NCBI RefSeq assembly: GCF_016743215.1
Contig: NZ_VRZC01000017.1
Coordinates: 1-38,298, forward strand
DNA: 38,298 bases
Origin: Geminocystis sp. GBBB08
GTDB taxonomy: Bacteria; Cyanobacteriota; Cyanobacteriia; Cyanobacteriales; Cyanobacteriaceae
Direction: 5' to 3'
Position numbers and translations under genes: made by a program. Every line of letters begins with the position of its first letter. Positions within the stretch are counted from its first letter, which is position 1. Positions 1 to 27,910 of this stretch are shown here, piece after piece. The notes under the pieces were generated by a model. It was not told the DNA's origin. It ran no database searches and worked only from the letters and a program-made list of their open reading frames with translations.

Positions 1-252
1 AAAAAATAAGAATTGTGTTTATTTAAAAAAATATTTTAAATTTTAAAAGAAATAATTTGTTTTATAATAAAATGTAACTAAATAACTATAGTAAAATTTC
101 TCTCAAAGAAGCAAAGACGAAAAACTTTATTATACTTCATTATCTCAATATAAGATTAGTAATAAACAAGATATTCTATTTTATACAAGTAACTAAAATA
201 AACTAATAAATCTTATTTTATCAAAAAGTTTAACAACTAATTATCTAAATTT

Positions 253-828
253 ATGCAACTAAAACCGCCAATGACAATGATGGATTTCTTTCGTAAAAGT
301 GAAGGAACTTGGTTTTCTCAAAGAACTGTACATCATTTTGATACTACTGCTGAACAATCTGGAGACTCCAATATTATCATTGAAGTTTTAGATAAAAATG
401 ACACTCGCATTATCAAAGTATGTGAAGAACAAAATATCCATCAAGATTTACCCGTTGGTGGTGCTAGTTTTTTATGGCAGGATAATTTAGATGATCCCAA
501 TCCGAATCCTAATTGGGCAGCTATTTTAGTGGATATTCCTGATCAAGAAGATCAAACCCGTGGCCGATTTCTTCGCAATAAAGGTTATGTAGAAGGGATT
601 CCCGTAGTTTGTCAATATAATTTTTCCCCTGACGGTGTCTTAACTATCATTACTGAATATGAAAAAAATCAAGGTATGGAAAGATGTTGGTTTATCACTG
701 ATGATTTTCGAGTTCGTGTTAGTACTGTTAAAATGATGAATGGTGTTAATCTTATGGGTTATTGTTCTGAGCGTCGTTGTGTTTCCCCTGAAATGTTAGA
801 AAAAATGGCACAAAAATATTTTCTATAG
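253..828 (+). CDS. CpcS/CpeS-family phycobiliprotein lyase
   Basis: The 191-residue product has the CpcS/CpeS lyase pattern: an N-terminal F-x-K-S-x-G-x-W-x-S-Q-R-x-x-H-H motif (about residues 12-28), the R-G-R-F-L-R-N-K-G-Y segment mid-protein, and C-S-E-R-R near the end. The family is a lipocalin-like barrel that attaches bilins to cysteine-82-type sites of phycobiliproteins. It converges on cpeT and lies beside a second, clearly different CpeS-type gene, so it is a paralogue (CpcS, CpcU or CpeU subgroup not resolved). ATG codons at 253, 271, 277 and 280 are all in frame; homologues usually start close to the D-F-F motif, so the true start may be 277 or 280. No good ribosome binding site is visible. 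The last codons, CTA TAG, belong to the inverted repeat of a miniature element beginning at 823, which therefore supplies the stop codon. Confidence 0.85.
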   Translation: MQLKPPMTMMDFFRKSEGTWFSQRTVHHFDTTAEQSGDSNIIIEVLDKNDTRIIKVCEEQNIHQDLPVGGASFLWQDNLDDPNPNPNWAAILVDIPDQEDQTRGRFLRNKGYVEGIPVVCQYNFSPDGVLTIITEYEKNQGMERCWFITDDFRVRVSTVKMMNGVNLMGYCSERRCVSPEMLEKMAQKYFL

Positions 829-956
829 CAATCCTATTTGATTTATGGTATTTCCGTTGGCAAAAATTTAGAATTTAGAATTTAGAATTTACAAATGACT
901 TGAGTTTAAGAGTTATTAATAGTTAATTTATCACAACCTATTTAGGACTGCTATAG
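823..956. mobile_element. MITE copy 1 (TATAGCAATCCTA family)
   Basis: The left end reads CTATAGCAATCCTA and the right end reads TAGGACTGCTATAG, an inverted repeat matching at 13 of 14 positions over a 134 bp element. Two further copies with the same ends lie at 3119-3255 and 27780-27910. The TATA ends fit a TA target duplication of the IS630/Tc1-mariner type, but that family is inferred. It contains no ORF. Three copies of the heptamer TTAGAAT (868-888) are nested inside. It overlaps the stop codon of the lyase gene to its left. Confidence 0.75.
868..888. repeat. Heptamer tandem repeat (TTAGAAT)3
   Basis: Three perfect head-to-tail copies of TTAGAAT, followed by a partial fourth. The same heptamer recurs in tandem at 10199-10226 (opposite orientation, four copies) and 24027-24040 (two copies). 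It resembles the short tandemly repeated heptamers known from cyanobacterial intergenic DNA. Confidence 0.8.
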
Positions 957-1026
957 TCAATTAGCGTAACCAATTTTGATCTAGGATTTGTTTTAGAAGT
1001 GCAATGAGATTTTTAGATGTTATTGA

Positions 1027-1620
1027 TTAAAAATATAATTCTGAAGAGAAATCTGTGATTTTTTCAAAGTATAAAGCCCCATGATTAGATCCCCATTTTT
1101 GTTCATGGGTATTAACATCCATTCCTCGATCCAGACTTATAAAAGTATTTTCCGTTAACTCAACTTCACTTACTAAATAAGTTAATACATCACCCTTTTT
1201 AATTAAACATTTATTTCCTTCAACACCGCCATAAAATTTGTCATCTTTTTTAGTAAAAACCATAGAACAATTGCAACGTCTTTCAATCACTTTAGGGGTA
1301 ATTGTTTTTAGAATATCTTGATTATGTCCTGAACCGGCGTAAAGAATAGGGTCATTTAAACTATAATTTTCGACATAAACTTGATTTTCTTGTGCCACAA
1401 ATCGATGCACACCTTGACGGTAGGGAGTCCACATATTATAATCGTAAACTTGTTCTGAATAAAAACCGATTCCCTGAAAAAAATCCCAAGGTAATGGGCG
1501 AAAAAAAACATGAATATGAGCAAATAATTGAGGATGATCAAAAGATTGTTTTTTGTTGCTAAATTCTCCAGCTATCCATTTTGCTAAAGTTATTATTAAT
1601 TCAGAGTTTTCATTTCCCAT
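1027..1620 (-). CDS. cpeT: CpeT-type phycobiliprotein lyase
   Basis: The 197-residue product matches the CpeT/CpcT lyase family, whose members attach phycoerythrobilin or phycocyanobilin to the cysteine-165-type site of beta subunits. Family marks visible are L-A-x-W-I-A-G-E-F-S-N at the N-terminus, a central Y-R-Q-G-V-H-R-F stretch, the C-N-C pair with following M-V-F (about residues 116-121), and E-G-N-K-C-L-I. Length is normal for the family. It is the last gene of the minus-strand row cpeC, second linker, cpeS, cpeT, starting 54 bp after cpeS; this is the order of the cpeCDESTR operon known from Fremyella. The phycoerythrin context favours CpeT over the phycocyanin enzyme CpcT. The activator gene cpeR, which follows cpeT in that operon, is not present here. 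Confidence 0.9.
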   Translation of the reverse strand: MGNENSELIITLAKWIAGEFSNKKQSFDHPQLFAHIHVFFRPLPWDFFQGIGFYSEQVYDYNMWTPYRQGVHRFVAQENQVYVENYSLNDPILYAGSGHNQDILKTITPKVIERRCNCSMVFTKKDDKFYGGVEGNKCLIKKGDVLTYLVSEVELTENTFISLDRGMDVNTHEQKWGSNHGALYFEKITDFSSELYF

Positions 1621-1674
1621 TGCTTAACTTTTCAGATTTATCAATAATTGCTAATATTATTTTGATTATTCATT

Positions 1675-2199
1675 TTAATCAGACTTTATTTCTGAAGAAA
1701 AAGAGGCAGTAGTCACTCCTTTACCGTCACTGGTTTTAATCATAGAAACACGAAATCTTAATTTTGGATTAATAAACCAAATTTTTTCTTCGGCACTTGC
1801 ACGATCATAGTTAGTCGTCAACACAAAAGTACCATCATTTAAAATTTCATAATTAGCGATCGCCGCCATAGTTTCCGCATAACCTCGATCCCTTAAAAGC
1901 CTTCCTTGAGCGGGATTATCACCATTGGGGATGGGAACTAATACAGTTGTTCCTTTTAATTCTTCTTTTTCATCCCAATCGGACTCACCTTCCCAAGTCA
2001 TTCTAAAAGGACTTTCAACCAAATCAGGATCAACATTATGTTGTTTACATAAACTAACTACTTCTGGATCATCCCTATTTAAAGAAATAATTTCTATATC
2101 CGATTTTACCTCTTCTAAATAACTAAAAGCAAGATGGTGAACACTACGCAGCGATCGCCAACTACCTATAGATTTTTGTACAAATTCAGCAATAGCCAT
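1675..2199 (-). CDS. cpeS: CpeS-type phycoerythrin lyase
   Basis: The 174-residue product is a CpcS/CpeS-family bilin lyase: S-x-G-S-W-x-S-L-R-S-V-H-H-L near the N-terminus, a W-E-G-E-S-D-W-D segment, then G-R-L-L-R-D-R-G-Y, K-I-W-F-I-N-P-K-L-R-F-R-V-S and a terminal S-F-S-S-E-I. The family catalyses thioether attachment of bilins at Cys-82-type positions. Its place between a phycoerythrin rod linker and cpeT is the place of cpeS in cpe operons, so phycoerythrobilin and phycoerythrin are the likely substrates. It is only distantly similar to the other CpeS-family protein at 253-828. A palindrome-rich 109 bp spacer separates it from the linker gene upstream. Two HIP1 palindromes lie in the coding region, at 1856 and 2151. 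Confidence 0.88.
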   Translation of the reverse strand: MAIAEFVQKSIGSWRSLRSVHHLAFSYLEEVKSDIEIISLNRDDPEVVSLCKQHNVDPDLVESPFRMTWEGESDWDEKEELKGTTVLVPIPNGDNPAQGRLLRDRGYAETMAAIANYEILNDGTFVLTTNYDRASAEEKIWFINPKLRFRVSMIKTSDGKGVTTASFSSEIKSD

Positions 2200-2230
2200 T
2201 TAACTTTTCCAACACAATAAATAAACAATT

Positions 2231-2285
2231 ACGGGAGGAAGCCCGTCTCACCAGATTAACGTGAGTAGGGTGGGCATTACCCACC
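2231..2285. repeat. Palindrome cluster between linker gene and cpeS
   Basis: Three successive hairpins lie in the spacer: ACGGG/CCCGT (2231-2246), CTCAC/GTGAG (2247-2265), and GGTGGG-CATTA-CCCACC (2269-2285). A relative of the last, with CATTGCCCACC, recurs at 30239-30257. Inside the operon these hairpins could slow 3' exonucleases or attenuate cpeS-cpeT expression relative to the linkers; that role is inferred. No T-run follows on the minus strand, so a simple terminator is unlikely. Confidence 0.65.
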
Positions 2286-2308
2286 TCAAAAAGATAAATA
2301 ATTAAAAT

Positions 2309-3070
2309 TTAGGCAACTTCAGAGATACTGACAATAGTACCACCAGCACGGTGAATACGTTGAATTTGGGGAGTCATTTTTGCACCAGAAACTAAATAAA
2401 CAGTATTACTAACTCGGCGAGGAGCATCAAATTTAGAGCCTTTAACCACAATCTTAAACTGTTTTTCAGTAGCATCTTTATAGCCAGTACGACCACCAGT
2501 AGAAGGTAAAGTAATTTTATTATCACCATTGGTAGCGATGGCTTCAACTAAACGAGAAGTTTTAACCGCACTATCAACAGAAGCATAACCACCCCAAACA
2601 TTTAAAATACGGTTATACTCAGATTGTTTTTGACCATTTTGAGTAGAAGCACCTTGATAGTAAGGAACGATATTTTCACCAAATTTAGCTTGATATTCTT
2701 GACTATCTAAATAGGAATCGATTTCAGCATTATAACCTTGTTCAATGGTAATGCGAATATGTTCAGAAAGTTCACTTTGATCTTGAGGTGCACGTCCTAA
2801 TAAATGTTTAAAATTAAGTTCAACAAAACGATAAGGTGAGCAAGACTCAAAATAACGACGGCGATAGAAATCAGATTTTGCCACTTCACGAACGAAATCA
2901 CGGACACTCAACTCACCATTACAAAGGCGAGATTCAGCACTGGTTAAGCGTTCACTTTCCATCACATGAGGATTACCCAAAACTTGACGATATACAGAGC
3001 GAATAACTGTTTGGAGTTCATCAGCATTGAGACTACGCAATTCAAGGGGAGTATCTAAAACTAAAGTCAT
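2309..3070 (-). CDS. Phycoerythrin-associated rod linker (CpeD/CpeE type)
   Basis: The 253-residue protein is a phycobilisome rod linker. A PBS linker domain covers about residues 15-145, with the hallmark I-R-S-V-Y-R-Q-V-L-G-N-x-H-V-M-E-S-E-R, G-E-L-S-V-R-D-F-V-R, F-V-E-L-N-F-K-H-L-L-G-R and G-E-N-I-V-P-Y-Y motifs. A CpcD-like capping domain closes the protein from about residue 203 (F-K-I-V-V-K-G to the end). Rod linkers set hexamer order in phycobilisome rods. Length fits CpeD or CpeE (about 250 residues), and I cannot separate the two by eye. The usual operon has both between cpeC and cpeS; only one is here. A miniature element sits in the 257 bp spacer to cpeC. Confidence 0.88.
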   Translation of the reverse strand: MTLVLDTPLELRSLNADELQTVIRSVYRQVLGNPHVMESERLTSAESRLCNGELSVRDFVREVAKSDFYRRRYFESCSPYRFVELNFKHLLGRAPQDQSELSEHIRITIEQGYNAEIDSYLDSQEYQAKFGENIVPYYQGASTQNGQKQSEYNRILNVWGGYASVDSAVKTSRLVEAIATNGDNKITLPSTGGRTGYKDATEKQFKIVVKGSKFDAPRRVSNTVYLVSGAKMTPQIQRIHRAGGTIVSISEVA

Positions 3071-3118
3071 ATTGTTAGTATTTTAATGTTAATGTAGTTT
3101 GAAATTATTAAAACAAGA

Positions 3119-3255
3119 TATAGCAATACTAAATCAGTTGTGAAATATTTAAAGATAGGAAATAATGTTTTACCTATTATTCAACAAGGGGTTTAAACCC
3201 CTTGCCTTTAAATTTGTAGTCCTTATTTTGCTACGAATCATTTAGGATTGCTATA
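3119..3255. mobile_element. MITE copy 2, inside the cpe operon
   Basis: The left end TATAGCAATACTAAAT and the inverse of the right end, TATAGCAATCCTAAAT, agree at 15 of 16 positions, and similarity continues several bases further in. The element is 137 bp with no ORF. It carries at its centre the perfect 20-base palindrome CAAGGGGTTTAAACCCCTTG (3185-3204). It sits between cpeC and the next linker gene, so it is transcribed if the operon is read as one message. It is the same family as 823-956 and 27780-27910. Confidence 0.75.
3185..3204. repeat. Dispersed 20-base palindrome
   Basis: CAAGGGGTTTAAACCCCTTG is a perfect palindrome. Near-identical copies occur at 19671-19690 and 30361-30380, and weaker ones near 23978 and 25073. 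All are intergenic. Confidence 0.8.
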
Positions 3256-3327
3256 TGTTTTTTAAAAGCAATAATGCTCTGAAGAATATTTTTACTCTCC
3301 ACCATCAAAGGTAAGAGAGCCAAAATG

Positions 3328-4203
3328 TTATACCGGAGTGATACTAGAAATAACTCCACCTTGGCGGTGAATGCTTTGATATTTATCAGAAAGTTGAGAA
3401 AAAGGGACAAAATAGACCTGATTACTGCGGCGGAACTTGGAAATTTGATTAATCTTAGCTTTCGTACGATAGCCTGTTACTTCAATACGATAGACTTTGC
3501 CTTGATCGCTTCCTCCAAGACCAACACGACTTGAAGCACTTCTGTCTGGTTCTTGGAATGCCCAACCATCGCCCACAGAACCTCCTGAAGGTGGTATGAT
3601 AGGTACGGGAATTTCTTGAATGACATACTTATTGAGAACAGGAGCTTTACCGGCTAAACTACCTTTAAAGTCACTGCTAGAAGCACCACGAAGTATAGCA
3701 AACATATGAGTAAATTCAACCATGGTCCGTTCAGGGGCAGTTTTGTAACCACGATAGTAAGGAACTATGTTTTCTCCGTAAGCATTTTGATACTCTTCGC
3801 TATCAATGTAAGAATCGATTTCCGCCTCATAACCTTGGGTATCTAAAATAGTACTATGAGTTCTCATTTCTTCTAAACCTTCAGGAGTACGACCTAAAAA
3901 ATGTTTAAAATTGAGTTCAATGAAACGATAACGAGGAGCAGTTTCAAAAAAGCGAGAACTGTAAGCAGAACTTTTAGCTAAAGCACGGACAAATTCTCTG
4001 ACACTTAATTCCCCACTTTTAAATTGAGATTCAGCTACTACTGCCCGTTCACTTTCCATTACATACGCATTCCCTAAAACTTGACGATAAACAGCACGAA
4101 TAATTACATCTAAATCTTCAGATGAACTATTAGGAAATCTTTCAAGGGGTGAAGTCTCTTCAAATAAACTAACTCCGAGTTGTGATGCTGGTCCAAAAAC
4201 CAT
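3328..4203 (-). CDS. cpeC: Phycoerythrin rod linker CpeC
   Basis: The 291-residue product starts M-V-F-G-P-A-S-x-L-G-V-S-L-F-x-E-T, the typical CpeC N-terminus. A PBS linker domain follows (about residues 30-160) with I-I-R-A-V-Y-R-Q-V-L-G-N-A-Y-V-M-E-S-E-R, S-V-R-E-F-V-R and E-L-N-F-K-H-F-L-G-R. A CpcD-like domain ends the protein (about residues 236-291) with V-Y-R-I-E-V-T-G-Y and S-K-F-R-R-S-N-Q-V-Y-F-V-P. It links phycoerythrin hexamers in phycobilisome rods. Length and both domains match the family. It is the first gene of the minus-strand cpe row and is preceded by a strong ribosome binding site (AGGAGG, 6 bases before the ATG). In cyanobacteria that tune pigment to light colour, cpeC promoters are typical green-light targets; no regulator gene is present here. 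Confidence 0.93.
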   Translation of the reverse strand: MVFGPASQLGVSLFEETSPLERFPNSSSEDLDVIIRAVYRQVLGNAYVMESERAVVAESQFKSGELSVREFVRALAKSSAYSSRFFETAPRYRFIELNFKHFLGRTPEGLEEMRTHSTILDTQGYEAEIDSYIDSEEYQNAYGENIVPYYRGYKTAPERTMVEFTHMFAILRGASSSDFKGSLAGKAPVLNKYVIQEIPVPIIPPSGGSVGDGWAFQEPDRSASSRVGLGGSDQGKVYRIEVTGYRTKAKINQISKFRRSNQVYFVPFSQLSDKYQSIHRQGGVISSITPV

Positions 4204-4560
4204 TACGATCCTCCTGTGTTATATTAAGATATTTTTTGATTGTGAGAAAAAAGGTTCACAAATGAATAATTGTTATATTTTGTCTAATACAATTGATGGT
4301 ATTAATTTCATCAATGAAAAATATTGAAAGTTCAAGATTTTCCCTAGGGGTTAGACATCAAATTAGACTCTATTGGTAAAATATTTAACAGGAATTTATG
4401 ACCAACATTTATTAAAATTTGTAAAGGGTTTTAGCCATTGATTACTCATATTAAATTAAGTTTTATTACTTTGTTTTCAGGATAAAGAGGTAGAAGGTAA
4501 GAAAGTTATAAATTAGGAAATATAGAATCTTTAAAAATTTTAAAATCACCATCTAACTTT
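4204..4560. promoter_or_regulatory. Divergent control region between cpeC and pebA
   Basis: This 357 bp AT-rich spacer separates the two divergently transcribed phycoerythrin units, so both promoters must lie in it. On the minus strand AGGAGG (complement of 4210-4215) stands 6 bases before the cpeC ATG. No clear -10/-35 pair could be fixed for either side. One 11-mer at 4416-4426 (AATTTGTAAAG) is one mismatch from the inverse of the CcaR box CTTTNCNATTT, but the tandem second copy expected of a real site was not found. Confidence 0.5.
4210..4215 (-). promoter_or_regulatory. Ribosome binding site of cpeC
   Basis: The minus strand reads AGGAGG, with 6 bases to the ATG at 4203. Most genes in this window lack such a site, so it supports both this start and high expression of the linker. 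Confidence 0.75.
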
Positions 4561-6311: not shown

Positions 6312-7475
6312 ATGATCGTATCGTCAGATATAATCGCTAGTATAGCCAATGATTTAAGTCGTTCACAGGAAGCCAAAAGGGCAAAAAAATTAATTTTTTA
6401 TGTGAGTCAAAGATATTGGGAATCTGATTTTGCCGTTGTTAATAGTTATTCTTTTGAATCTTTATTGCAAAGTCTTTATGAAAATAATCCTACTACTGAA
6501 GATCTTAAAGCCTTACTATCTCATGCGGTTAATACTTTAAATCGAAAAGAAGTTTATAAGAATATTGCCAAATATGTATATCAAAGAATGTCAGAGTTGT
6601 ATAATAATCCTGATACAGATTCTGGTGTTCAAAATGTGATTCAAGGCAATGAATATGAATTAATCGATCGCATTGTGGAAAATATTGAATATCATGAAGA
6701 ATCCCCTAGAATCAAGAAATTAATTTTCGCTGCTTGTAAACAATATTGGGAAAATGATATTAATGTAATCGAAATGTATGATCTTCGAGAACTATTACTA
6801 GAATTACATCAACTTTACCCCAATGCCAAAAAATTAAAACAAGCCTTTGATAATATAGTCGCTACCATTAATCGTCAAAATTTTTATTCCTTTATCGCTG
6901 ATACTATTCTCGGAGAATTGAATTATTTATATAAACATGAAACTCAGGAAATAATATCAGATTCAAATACCGGAGAGGAAGAAGAAACTAAATTAATTAA
7001 GGCTAAAAGTAAAAGTACCTCTCATCAACCATCCCCTGTTACTACAAATCAAGAAATTATTACTGATATTCAATCCTCTACAGTAGAAGAAAGTTTATCT
7101 TCAGAGCCTGAAGCGGTGGTTTCGCCTAGTAGTGTTCCAGAAGGGCAAATTATTCCCTGGCTAAAAATCGATAGTCTTTTTGATCTTAAACAAGAGATCA
7201 TGCAATATACTAACCCTTTAAGAGCAAAAATAATTTTATTCTATGCAGTCTATCAAATTGATCCTTCCGAACAACATTGGTCGATCGTTCGAACTTGCAG
7301 TATAGATGATTTACTGGTGAAAATGTTTCAACAAAATGATAAAGATATAAAAACTGTTGAATCTCAATTATTACAAGTAGGCAACTCTAGTATTGAAGGC
7401 TTAGAAACCGAAGAAAATCTTCAGGCAGCTATTGCTGTGATTGAATCTATTAAACGTTTCTATAAAAAATTATAG
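6312..7475 (+). CDS. Unrecognised protein with two or three internal repeats
   Basis: I do not recognise a family for this 387-residue protein. It contains a duplicated unit of about 78 residues. The first copy (about 20-97) begins K-R-A-K-K-L-I-F-Y-V-S-Q-R-Y-W-E-S-D, and the second (about 131-207) begins P-R-I-K-K-L-I-F-A-A-C-K-Q-Y-W-E-N-D. Both continue through an L-L-x-x-L motif and end in T-x-N-R and a Y-(I/L)-A-(K/D)-x-x-x-x-x-(M/L)-x-x-L-Y pattern. A third, more divergent copy starts near residue 300 (L-R-A-K-I-I-L-F-Y-A-V). A low-complexity Ser/Thr/Glu/Pro linker (about 215-280) separates copies two and three. No signal peptide or membrane segment is visible; predicted content is mostly helical. 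It lies 111 bp downstream of pebB, probably behind a weak terminator, so a link to pigment synthesis is unproven. Confidence 0.8.
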   Translation: MIVSSDIIASIANDLSRSQEAKRAKKLIFYVSQRYWESDFAVVNSYSFESLLQSLYENNPTTEDLKALLSHAVNTLNRKEVYKNIAKYVYQRMSELYNNPDTDSGVQNVIQGNEYELIDRIVENIEYHEESPRIKKLIFAACKQYWENDINVIEMYDLRELLLELHQLYPNAKKLKQAFDNIVATINRQNFYSFIADTILGELNYLYKHETQEIISDSNTGEEEETKLIKAKSKSTSHQPSPVTTNQEIITDIQSSTVEESLSSEPEAVVSPSSVPEGQIIPWLKIDSLFDLKQEIMQYTNPLRAKIILFYAVYQIDPSEQHWSIVRTCSIDDLLVKMFQQNDKDIKTVESQLLQVGNSSIEGLETEENLQAAIAVIESIKRFYKKL

Positions 7476-16353: not shown

Positions 16354-18369
16354 CTAATCCACCGTTTCATAATCTCCCGTGATAGTCTCATCTTTATCAT
16401 AATCAAAATCAAAATCGTTAGGATCTTCCGAAATCTGACTTAAACCGCTTAAAATTTCATCTTCAATACTCTTAAATTCATCATCACCATCATTATCTAA
16501 AGACTCATAAGCCGTATTATTATTTTCTTCAAAACCAGCGAAAACAGTAGGATCTTGAGGAGTTTGATAAGCCTGTGCACCAATATTAACTACTAGATTA
16601 CGAAAATCACTCATTAAATTTTCTACTTGTTTAACCGGAATTAATGGCGAATCGATCGCCTCTTCAACTTTACGTTTACCGATTTCGATTTGATTTTTTA
16701 AATCTTTACTAACAAGATGAGGATTTTTGCTTAAAGTTAATTCATAACTGTACATCAGACTATCTAATTGTTTCTTGATTTCTACCAATTCTACTCGACG
16801 ACGATCTTCTGTTGCAAATTTTTCCGCTTGATGTTTCATGGTGTCAATTTCCGAAGAACTTAACGCTCCAGTATTGGTAATAAGAATACTTTGTTCTTGA
16901 CCTGTACCTTTATCCTTAGCCGATACTTTTAAGATACCATCCACATCGATGTCAAAAGATACCTCTATTTGTGGTACTCCCCTAGGAGCTGGAGGAATAC
17001 CTGTTAACAAAAATTTACCTAAACTCTTATTATCTTTCACCATCGATCGCTCACCCTGTAATACATGAACTTCTACAGAGCTTTGTCCATCAATAGCGGT
17101 AGAAAATATTGGAAAACTCTTGGTGGAATTTGTCTTTTTTCTAAAAATATTTCAGTAAACCATCACCATAATGCTCCTAAACTCAAAAAAAAAGGGGCCC
17201 ACCTCCAAAACAACAAATTTTCAGACTCCCCCCCCTAACACTCCACCTTGAACCGCCGCTCCTAAAGCCACAGCCTCATCAGGATTAATAGATCTATCGA
17301 TAGGGATATTTGCCCCAAAATACTTTTCAATTTGTTGAGAGATGACAGGAGTACGAGTAGAACCTCCAACCAAAACAATACGATTTATCTGATCACGACT
17401 TAAGCCCGAATCCTTTAAAGCTTGTTCCATCGGGTGGATAATATCCGCCACTAAATCCTGGATTAACTCCTCTAATTTAGGGCGAGATAATTCTAATTCT
17501 AAGTGTTTTGGTCCACTTTCATCGGCTGTAATAAAGGGTAAATTAATAGAAGTTTCTGCCATATTTGATAACTCTATTGTTGCCTTTTCAGCCGCCTCTC
17601 GCAGACGTTGCAAAGCCATTTTATCGGATCGCAAATCAATCCATTCTTGTTGTTTAAACTTGGCGAGTAACCAATCCACAATTACTGCATCAAAATCGTC
17701 TCCTCCGAGTTGATTATTCCCAGACGTAGAAACAACTTCAAAAACACCATTTCCTAATTGTAAGATCGAAACGTCAAAAGTTCCACCCCCTAAGTCAAAA
17801 ACTAAAACGTGTTGATCTTCATTTTGTTTATCTAAACCATAAGCTAAGGCGGCCGCCGTAGGTTCATTAATAATACGCATCACCTCTAAACCAGCGATCA
17901 CCCCTGCATCTTTGGTAGCCTGTCTTTGGGCGTCAGTAAAATAAGCAGGAACAGTAATTACCGCCTGAGTAACAGTTTCCCCTAAGAAAGTTTCCGCATC
18001 GGTTTTCAACTTTTGCAGAATCATGGATGAAATTTCTTGAGTAGTATAACTTTTACCCTGAATATCCACGCAAACAGTATGATCTTTTCCCATAACGCAG
18101 TTATAGGTAACTCTTTTGCGATCTTCTTCTGTTTCTTCCCATCGTTGCCCAATAAAACGCTTAATACTATAAACAGTATTTTCAGCATTTGTGACGGCTT
18201 GTCGTTTAGCAAGTTGACCAACTAATCGTTGATTTCCCTTCCCAAAACCGACAATACTAGGGGTTGTTCGTGAACCTTCTTGATTGGTAATGACAATGGG
18301 TTTGCCACCTTCTAAGACGGCAACACAACTATTGGTTGTTCCTAAATCTATTCCTATGACCTTTCCCAT
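16354..18369 (-). pseudogene. dnaK: Chaperone DnaK (DnaK1 type), interrupted
   Basis: Hsp70 chaperone gene in two pieces of the same reading frame. The ATPase part (18369 to 17224, 382 residues) has [25 protein letters not shown] and L-V-G-G-S-T-R-T-P. The later part (from about 17103) resumes with [22 protein letters not shown], then the substrate-binding domain and an acidic tail (ends 16354). Between them, about 130 bp reads as noise with in-frame TGA at 17221-17223 and 17152-17154. The spacing is exactly that of an intact gene (45 codons), so full read-through would give 671 residues. The grpE neighbour and the acidic tail suggest DnaK1. Cyanobacteria usually carry other dnaK genes, so loss could be tolerated. 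Local sequence error is at least as likely as real decay. Confidence 0.85.
17101..17229 (-). other. Degenerate tract within dnaK
   Basis: Expected DnaK sequence here runs from G-G-E-V-K-D-L-L-L-L-D-V-T-P through F-T-(K/E)-I-I-E-R-N-T-T-I-P to Q-V-F-S-T-A. The observed tract keeps patches of it (L-E-V-G-P in frame; F-T-E-I and I-P shifted by one base), with long homopolymers: eight C at 17228-17235, nine A at 17185-17193, and GGGGCCC beside the A run. Both flanks are fully conserved. Confidence 0.6.
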
Positions 18370-27779: not shown

Positions 27780-27910
27780 TATAGCAATCCTATGGTAGAT
27801 TTTTAGAGGTGTTAGCTATCAGCTTTCAGTGGTCAGTTTTAAGGTATAGTAAGATTTACAGATTTATTTTTTAATCTTTAATTCTTCACGAATGATTTAC
27901 GATTGCTATA
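27780..27910. mobile_element. MITE copy 3 (TATAGCAATCCTA family)
   Basis: The left end TATAGCAATCCTA and the inverse of the right end, TATAGCAATCGTA, differ at one of 13 positions; length 131 bp. The inner right end (TTCACGAATGATTTACGATTGC) resembles that of copy 2 at 3230-3255. There is no ORF. It fills much of the 322 bp coaD-argJ spacer. Confidence 0.72.

Follow-up and report, generated by a model that had tools for sequence, protein, structure and literature searches.

RUP is a 107-bp repeat with ends similar to those of an IS630 element, a TA target and an intergenic distribution; its description also reports stops in all six frames and proposes mobilisation by IS630-Spn1 (PMC2229807). 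In cyanobacteria, ISY100 of Synechocystis is an IS630/Tc1-mariner element with 24-bp imperfect ends, whose insertions fall almost exclusively at TA and double that dinucleotide (PMC2170065). Where QMITE elements of Coxiella burnetii have inserted in annotated genes, they lie at 3' ends and alter C-termini and stop position; QMITE2 has 7-9 bp direct repeats, and in one case MITE sequence gives 33 C-terminal residues (PMC5896051).

Here we document, in a 38,298-nucleotide contig of Geminocystis sp. GBBB08 (the window), a MITE at the 3' end of a phycobiliprotein lyase gene, together with its repeat family, shared ends, target preference, reading frame and the match of its joined flanks to a relative. 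With RUP it has in common a short length, IS630-like ends and a TA target; RUP differs in host phylum and end sequence, and the likely parents of the Geminocystis MITE were found only in other genomes. Like ISY100, it is cyanobacterial, of the IS630 family and TA-duplicating, but ISY100 is autonomous and 947 bp long, and we liken the two by description, not by end sequence. QMITE insertions also change C-termini and stops but belong to a separate family. Nezha, reportedly an active MITE in cyanobacteria, has TA as its target and is likened to our element by host group and kind, not by end sequence. IS630 itself is said to prefer TA within CTAG, according to the title of a 1991 study.

The lyase insertion and its probable empty site

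The features of the locus are listed below; G003 is the closest relative with the lyase gene.

253-828, plus strand: CpeS-family phycobiliprotein lyase gene (ORF, 191 aa, last codons CTA TAG; PF09367, E 6.8e-61)
824-825, plus strand: left copy of the TA target duplication, second and third bases of the Leu codon CTA (joined-flank fit to G003, MTAK preference)
826-828, plus strand: lyase stop codon TAG, formed by bases 1-3 of the element (sequence, frame analysis)
826-953, no strand assigned: MITE proper, IS630/Tc1-mariner type, 128 bp, ends TAGCAATCCTA / TAGGACTGCTA, common to elements beside IS630-type transposase genes
954-955, plus strand: right copy of the TA target duplication (joined-flank comparison)
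956-964, plus strand: GTC AAT TAG (Val-Asn-stop), the ancestral lyase tail, displaced beyond the present gene end (joined flanks align gap-free to G003 GTT AGT TAG)
1027-1620, minus strand: convergent CpeT-family gene (ORF; PF06206, E 3.3e-61), with its stop about 70 bp past the element

The inverted-repeat element that the original prediction placed at the lyase 3' end is present: CTATAGCAATCCTA lies at 823-836 without mismatch, its inverted partner lies at 943-956 with one mismatch, and the element with both TA copies spans 824-955. Both outermost bases, C at 823 and G at 956, belong to the flanks, and this copy's own target is C-TA-G. Thus, of the two terminal codons CTA TAG first assigned to the element, TAG belongs to it and CTA does not, its C being flank and its TA target. 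The Leu codon is target DNA, as G003 has Leu (CTT) there too, and the stop codon alone is element DNA. A short tandem heptamer (AATTTAG repeats) occupies 864-894 within this copy; many weaker genome matches span the heptamer part of the query alone, and runs of this kind apparently also occur outside the family.

G003 carries a 96% identical lyase gene without the element, ending KYSLVS-stop. When the window flanks are joined with a single TA, they read KYFLVN-stop, the same length as the G003 orthologue, and align with it gap-free for 12 bases past the TA (143/164 identical). Against G003, the joined flanks score 103 with one TA and 97 when it is omitted or doubled, and the left flank by itself scores 86. 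This fit draws on a single relative free of the element, and the site there differs, reading CTTG instead of CTAG and lacking a TA. Past the TA, the alignment is limited to 30 bases of G003 against 27 of the window and needs two gaps; a shuffled downstream flank reaches the joined score in 3 of 1000 trials. In G001 and G005, the alignment ends 5-9 bases before the junction. Since the joined flanks fit G003 best with one TA, the likeliest outcome of the insertion is the loss of Val-Asn and a new TAG stop contributed by the element's first three bases. The claim that the insertion fixed the present C-terminus is thus borne out by the joined flanks, and a Leu-stop at the same position occurs in none of the 15 other orthologues compared; two distant orthologues (L071 and L072) have the same length as the window lyase and other residues.

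Very probably, then, an IS630/Tc1-mariner MITE inserted at CTAG with the help of a transposase provided in trans, duplicated the TA and cut two residues from the protein. The transposase would have placed the MITE just inside the lyase 3' end, with duplication of the TA target. As the element starts with TAG right after the TA, a TA at codon positions 2-3 yields NTA-TAG and an immediate stop. In this way ...Leu-Val-Asn-stop would have been replaced by ...Leu-stop, leaving the old stop unused at 962-964, and the element-free ancestral allele would read CTAGTCAATTAG.

Loss of these two residues is most likely neutral, because the lyase tail varies freely among species. The PF09367 domain reaches residue 176 of the 191-residue protein. 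Across the 73 of 96 loci parsed by pattern (window included, a few genomes present twice, the 23 unparsed loci left out), the tail after the SERRC motif ranges from 14 to 31 residues, apart from one locus with 4. It comprises 15 residues in the window lyase vs 17 in G003, and a 15-residue tail recurs in 2 of the 72 other parsed loci, with different residues and a stop formed without the element. We infer both transposition in trans and near-neutrality.

The reverse history, in which the ancestor already had the element at this site and precise excision later removed it from G003 and other relatives, draws on the age of the family, which must be old because its end motif occurs across the order. 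We give this history scarcely any credence: G003, G001, G005, G007 and G010, all of the same family, lack such an end in the stretch compared after the stop, and G003 retains no TA in its CTTG. Moreover, a scan of 95 orthologue loci at up to 1 mismatch (some genomes twice, some loci with little downstream DNA) found an end within 300 bp downstream only in a Richelia MAG (L236) and in Okeania SIO1I7 (L207). In the latter, the lyase gene is followed at about 190 bp by a single end; at 6750-6830 of that locus, a MITE-like end is directly followed by a fragment resembling the lyase C-terminus, FDGFNLMSYCSESRC (translated by eye), as if the lyase 3' part had been duplicated.

A genome-wide family and its likely parents

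The end motif recurs genome-wide far beyond chance. In the host assembly (4.10 Mb, 325 contigs), the 13-mer TATAGCARTCCTA has 102 exact occurrences, the positions of 100 being listed, vs 1 for its reversed control, in a search that copies with both ends decayed escape. At up to 2 mismatches, TATAGCAATCCTA, a sequence with no occurrence in the literature searched, is found 382 times in the genome vs 186 in the control. The window alone is mildly enriched, with nine matches to the single motif at up to 3 mismatches vs a shuffled mean of 4.4 (5 of 100 shuffles reached at least 9). In a comparison of 60 genomes, the exact TATAGCARTCCTA is present in 42, host included, with 92 occurrences in the host and 0-70 in the others.

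In the fetched stretches of the genome, 57 end pairs were found, or 55 after dropping two alternative pairings of one right end, together with 37 single ends. Setting aside three pairs longer than 190 bp leaves at least 52 paired copies of 119-186 bp, which make the family multi-copy, short and free of a transposase gene. Behind the same ends, at least three types of interior can be told apart by eye. Immediately outside TATAG, 102 of 110 flanks have A or C. The full (A/C)TA(T/G), or MTAK, target describes 44 of the 52 copies, and the CTAG found at the lyase gene 6 of 52, against 19.2% and 1.8% of the TA sites sampled over 400 kb. Assignment of the element to the MITEs of IS630/Tc1-mariner type, RUP-like in character, is well supported.

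Other genomes of the order contain candidate parents. In G044, an element of 1152 bp has an exact 13-mer at both ends and encloses pieces of an IS630-type transposase, as two overlapping frames with HTH_33 and DDE_3 domains; it has an internal stop and looks broken. Elsewhere in the order, several transposase matches lie between paired ends that have an identical or almost identical motif and a spacing of 1125-1331 bp, and the MITE ends share 16 to about 24 bases, TATAGCAATCCTAAATSATTYGTG, with these transposase-bearing elements by eye. Most transposase-bearing relatives with matching ends are broken or split in frame. Unbroken transposases with both DDE_3 and HTH_33 are encoded in L281 (345 aa; the right end alone found, with 2 mismatches) and L294 (360 aa; variant ends TATAGCGATCG), and L296, a sister copy of L281, has both ends (2 and 1 mismatches) and a gene in two frames. 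The G004 copies bear the variant ends TATAGCAATCAGG/TATAGCAATAAGG. Among the IS630-type loci from the genus search, a few have one end at 2 mismatches and none has the exact motif. As a separate observation, the transposase reads as one frame in L281 (1492-2529) and as two overlapping frames in L296 (897-1932) and L150, which suggests frameshifting or decay.

The first transposase frame of G044 is matched in 19 of the 60 genomes searched, among which the host has no match. PF13358 and the 345-aa protein likewise match nothing in the host genome; the search with the 345-aa protein ran without a positive control, and the similar first-frame search is the one that matched 19 of 60 genomes. As the host has no transposase match, either the family is orphaned there or its IS is absent from the assembly, from whose 325 contigs repeats may be missing. 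Present mobility of the family in the host is at most a candidate property.

The message end and other copies in the window

Two further copies lie in the window.

3119-3255, no strand assigned: second copy, 137 bp, with an interior of another type, located in the cpe cluster between two phycobilisome linker genes (fold z -5.46)
27780-27910, no strand assigned: third copy, 131 bp, between coaD and argJ

The same ends had been noted at both positions, and pairs were indeed found at each, at 3118-3131/3243-3256 and 27779-27792/27898-27911. The coaD-argJ spacer is too diverged for an alignment to cross the 27780-27910 junction. Around 3119, no syntenic relative occurs among those fetched, G001 has a different gene order at the corresponding site, and the BLAST matches there are fragments. 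Elsewhere in the window, the dnaK-like gene that follows grpE is disrupted: it reads as two HSP70 ORFs of 382 and 229 aa on the minus strand (16354-18369), and the apparent frame changes in the stretch between them may reflect either a pseudogene or a sequencing error.

The inverted repeat at the lyase gene could instead be a selected terminator or RNA hairpin between convergent genes, its overlap with the stop codon being incidental. The element does sit between convergent genes and its ends pair in predicted RNA. A Richelia MAG also carries a different 104-bp element of the same end type, with one mismatch per end, directly after the TAA stop of the orthologue and facing cpeT. Nevertheless, we consider this explanation very unlikely. 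None of the four terminator-like sites called in 1-4500 falls within 824-955, intrinsic terminators being marked by a G+C-rich stem with a T run after it. Fold z scores against shuffles are only -2.13 and -2.25, the closest orthologue (G003) lacks the element, and Rfam has no family at gathering score in the window. A terminator role was accordingly rejected for want of a called site, a strong fold and enrichment at convergent ends, and the original suggestion that the insertion affects the message end of the convergent cpe operon finds no support.

Between which genes the copies lie was counted for 54 paired copies (90-190 bp, up to 3 mismatches, crude ORF calls of at least 80 aa). Tandem, divergent and convergent genes flank 27, 15 and 7 of them, with 5 at locus edges, whereas intergenic bases in the 400-kb sample divide 53/22/25% among these classes (chi-square about 4.2, 2 degrees of freedom). 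Convergent junctions thus hold 7 of 49 classified copies vs 25% of intergenic bases; set against these shares, the copies have no preference for 3' ends.

A better candidate for a transcript effect than the lyase copy would be the copy at 3119-3255, going by predicted folding: its RNA in the operon sense folds much more strongly than shuffles, it holds the palindrome CAAGGGGTTTAAACCCCTTG, and it contains one of the four called terminator-like sites, on the opposite strand.

Among the 95 orthologue loci, scanned with up to 1 mismatch allowed, the Richelia element is the only full end pair near the stop. The two bases next after the TAA stop form its TA target copy, and we take the element as an independent insertion because its interior and exact site differ from those in Geminocystis. 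At 6699-6760 of this locus, a convergent cpeT-like gene ends IAVDS-stop in TATAGCAG, followed by TTGACAG heptamers; this is possibly another decayed end supplying a C-terminus.

Copies at the ends of other genes

Copies that supply a gene's stop are real but uncommon. Scanning 156 end boundaries yielded four open genes of at least 60 codons that end at or inside a copy; a fifth row of this list (L010, 2687) was discarded as a chance motif inside a long open gene. In the 54-copy set, three paired copies overlap the stop end of a gene and none lies inside an unbroken ORF. The count of copies ending ORFs, called for in the original prediction, comes to these three and one decayed copy, and most copies end none.

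One such gene encodes prephenate dehydratase (PF00800), which now ends ...GDRYSNPI-stop; as the joined flanks read ...GDR-TAG, the stop codon itself was the target. A glycosyltransferase-28 gene (PF03033/PF04101), which we take to be murG, now ends ...ESYIATLNHL-stop, and its joined flanks read ...ESYNIDD-stop. A hybrid histidine kinase beside a decayed copy ends YSNSI-stop. The predicted ancestral tails have a residue-for-residue match in none of the 13 prephenate dehydratase and 12 murG-like orthologues, which end at varied positions. These two cases are therefore supported by frame, not by a matching relative.

In their stops the ends recall RUP, for which stops are described in all six frames (PMC2229807). 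Reading 104 ends inward, a TA at codon positions 2-3 meets TAG at once in 101, and a TA at positions 1-2 meets a stop by base 18 in 44; in the third frame, a stop appears by base 18 in 8 and at base 22 in 42. All three frames are closed by base 30 in 31 of the 104. In the last two frames, 65 and 61 of the 104 have a stop by base 30 vs about 41% with the inner part shuffled, figures that come from related, not independent, copies. Given the moderate size of this excess and the relatedness of the copies, selection for stops is no more than a candidate reading.

In a stronger form of that reading, the ends would be landing-safe termini, able to rewrite the C-termini of important genes (murG and prephenate dehydratase among them) and leave those genes functional, in parallel across cyanobacteria. 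On entering a TA within the tail of a gene or within its TAG stop codon, they would bring TAG at once in one frame and often a stop within about 10 codons in the others (TGA after YSNPI/YSNPK). On present evidence we regard this as unlikely.

The lyase insertion itself is an ordinary and probably harmless event with a small effect on one gene. It nonetheless offers a clean example, complete with an element-free relative, of a miniature transposon resetting a bacterial stop codon, and the family to which it belongs parallels RUP in cyanobacteria, with likely parents of IS630 type. Differences of a few C-terminal residues between close strains can be transposon scars, not adaptation.
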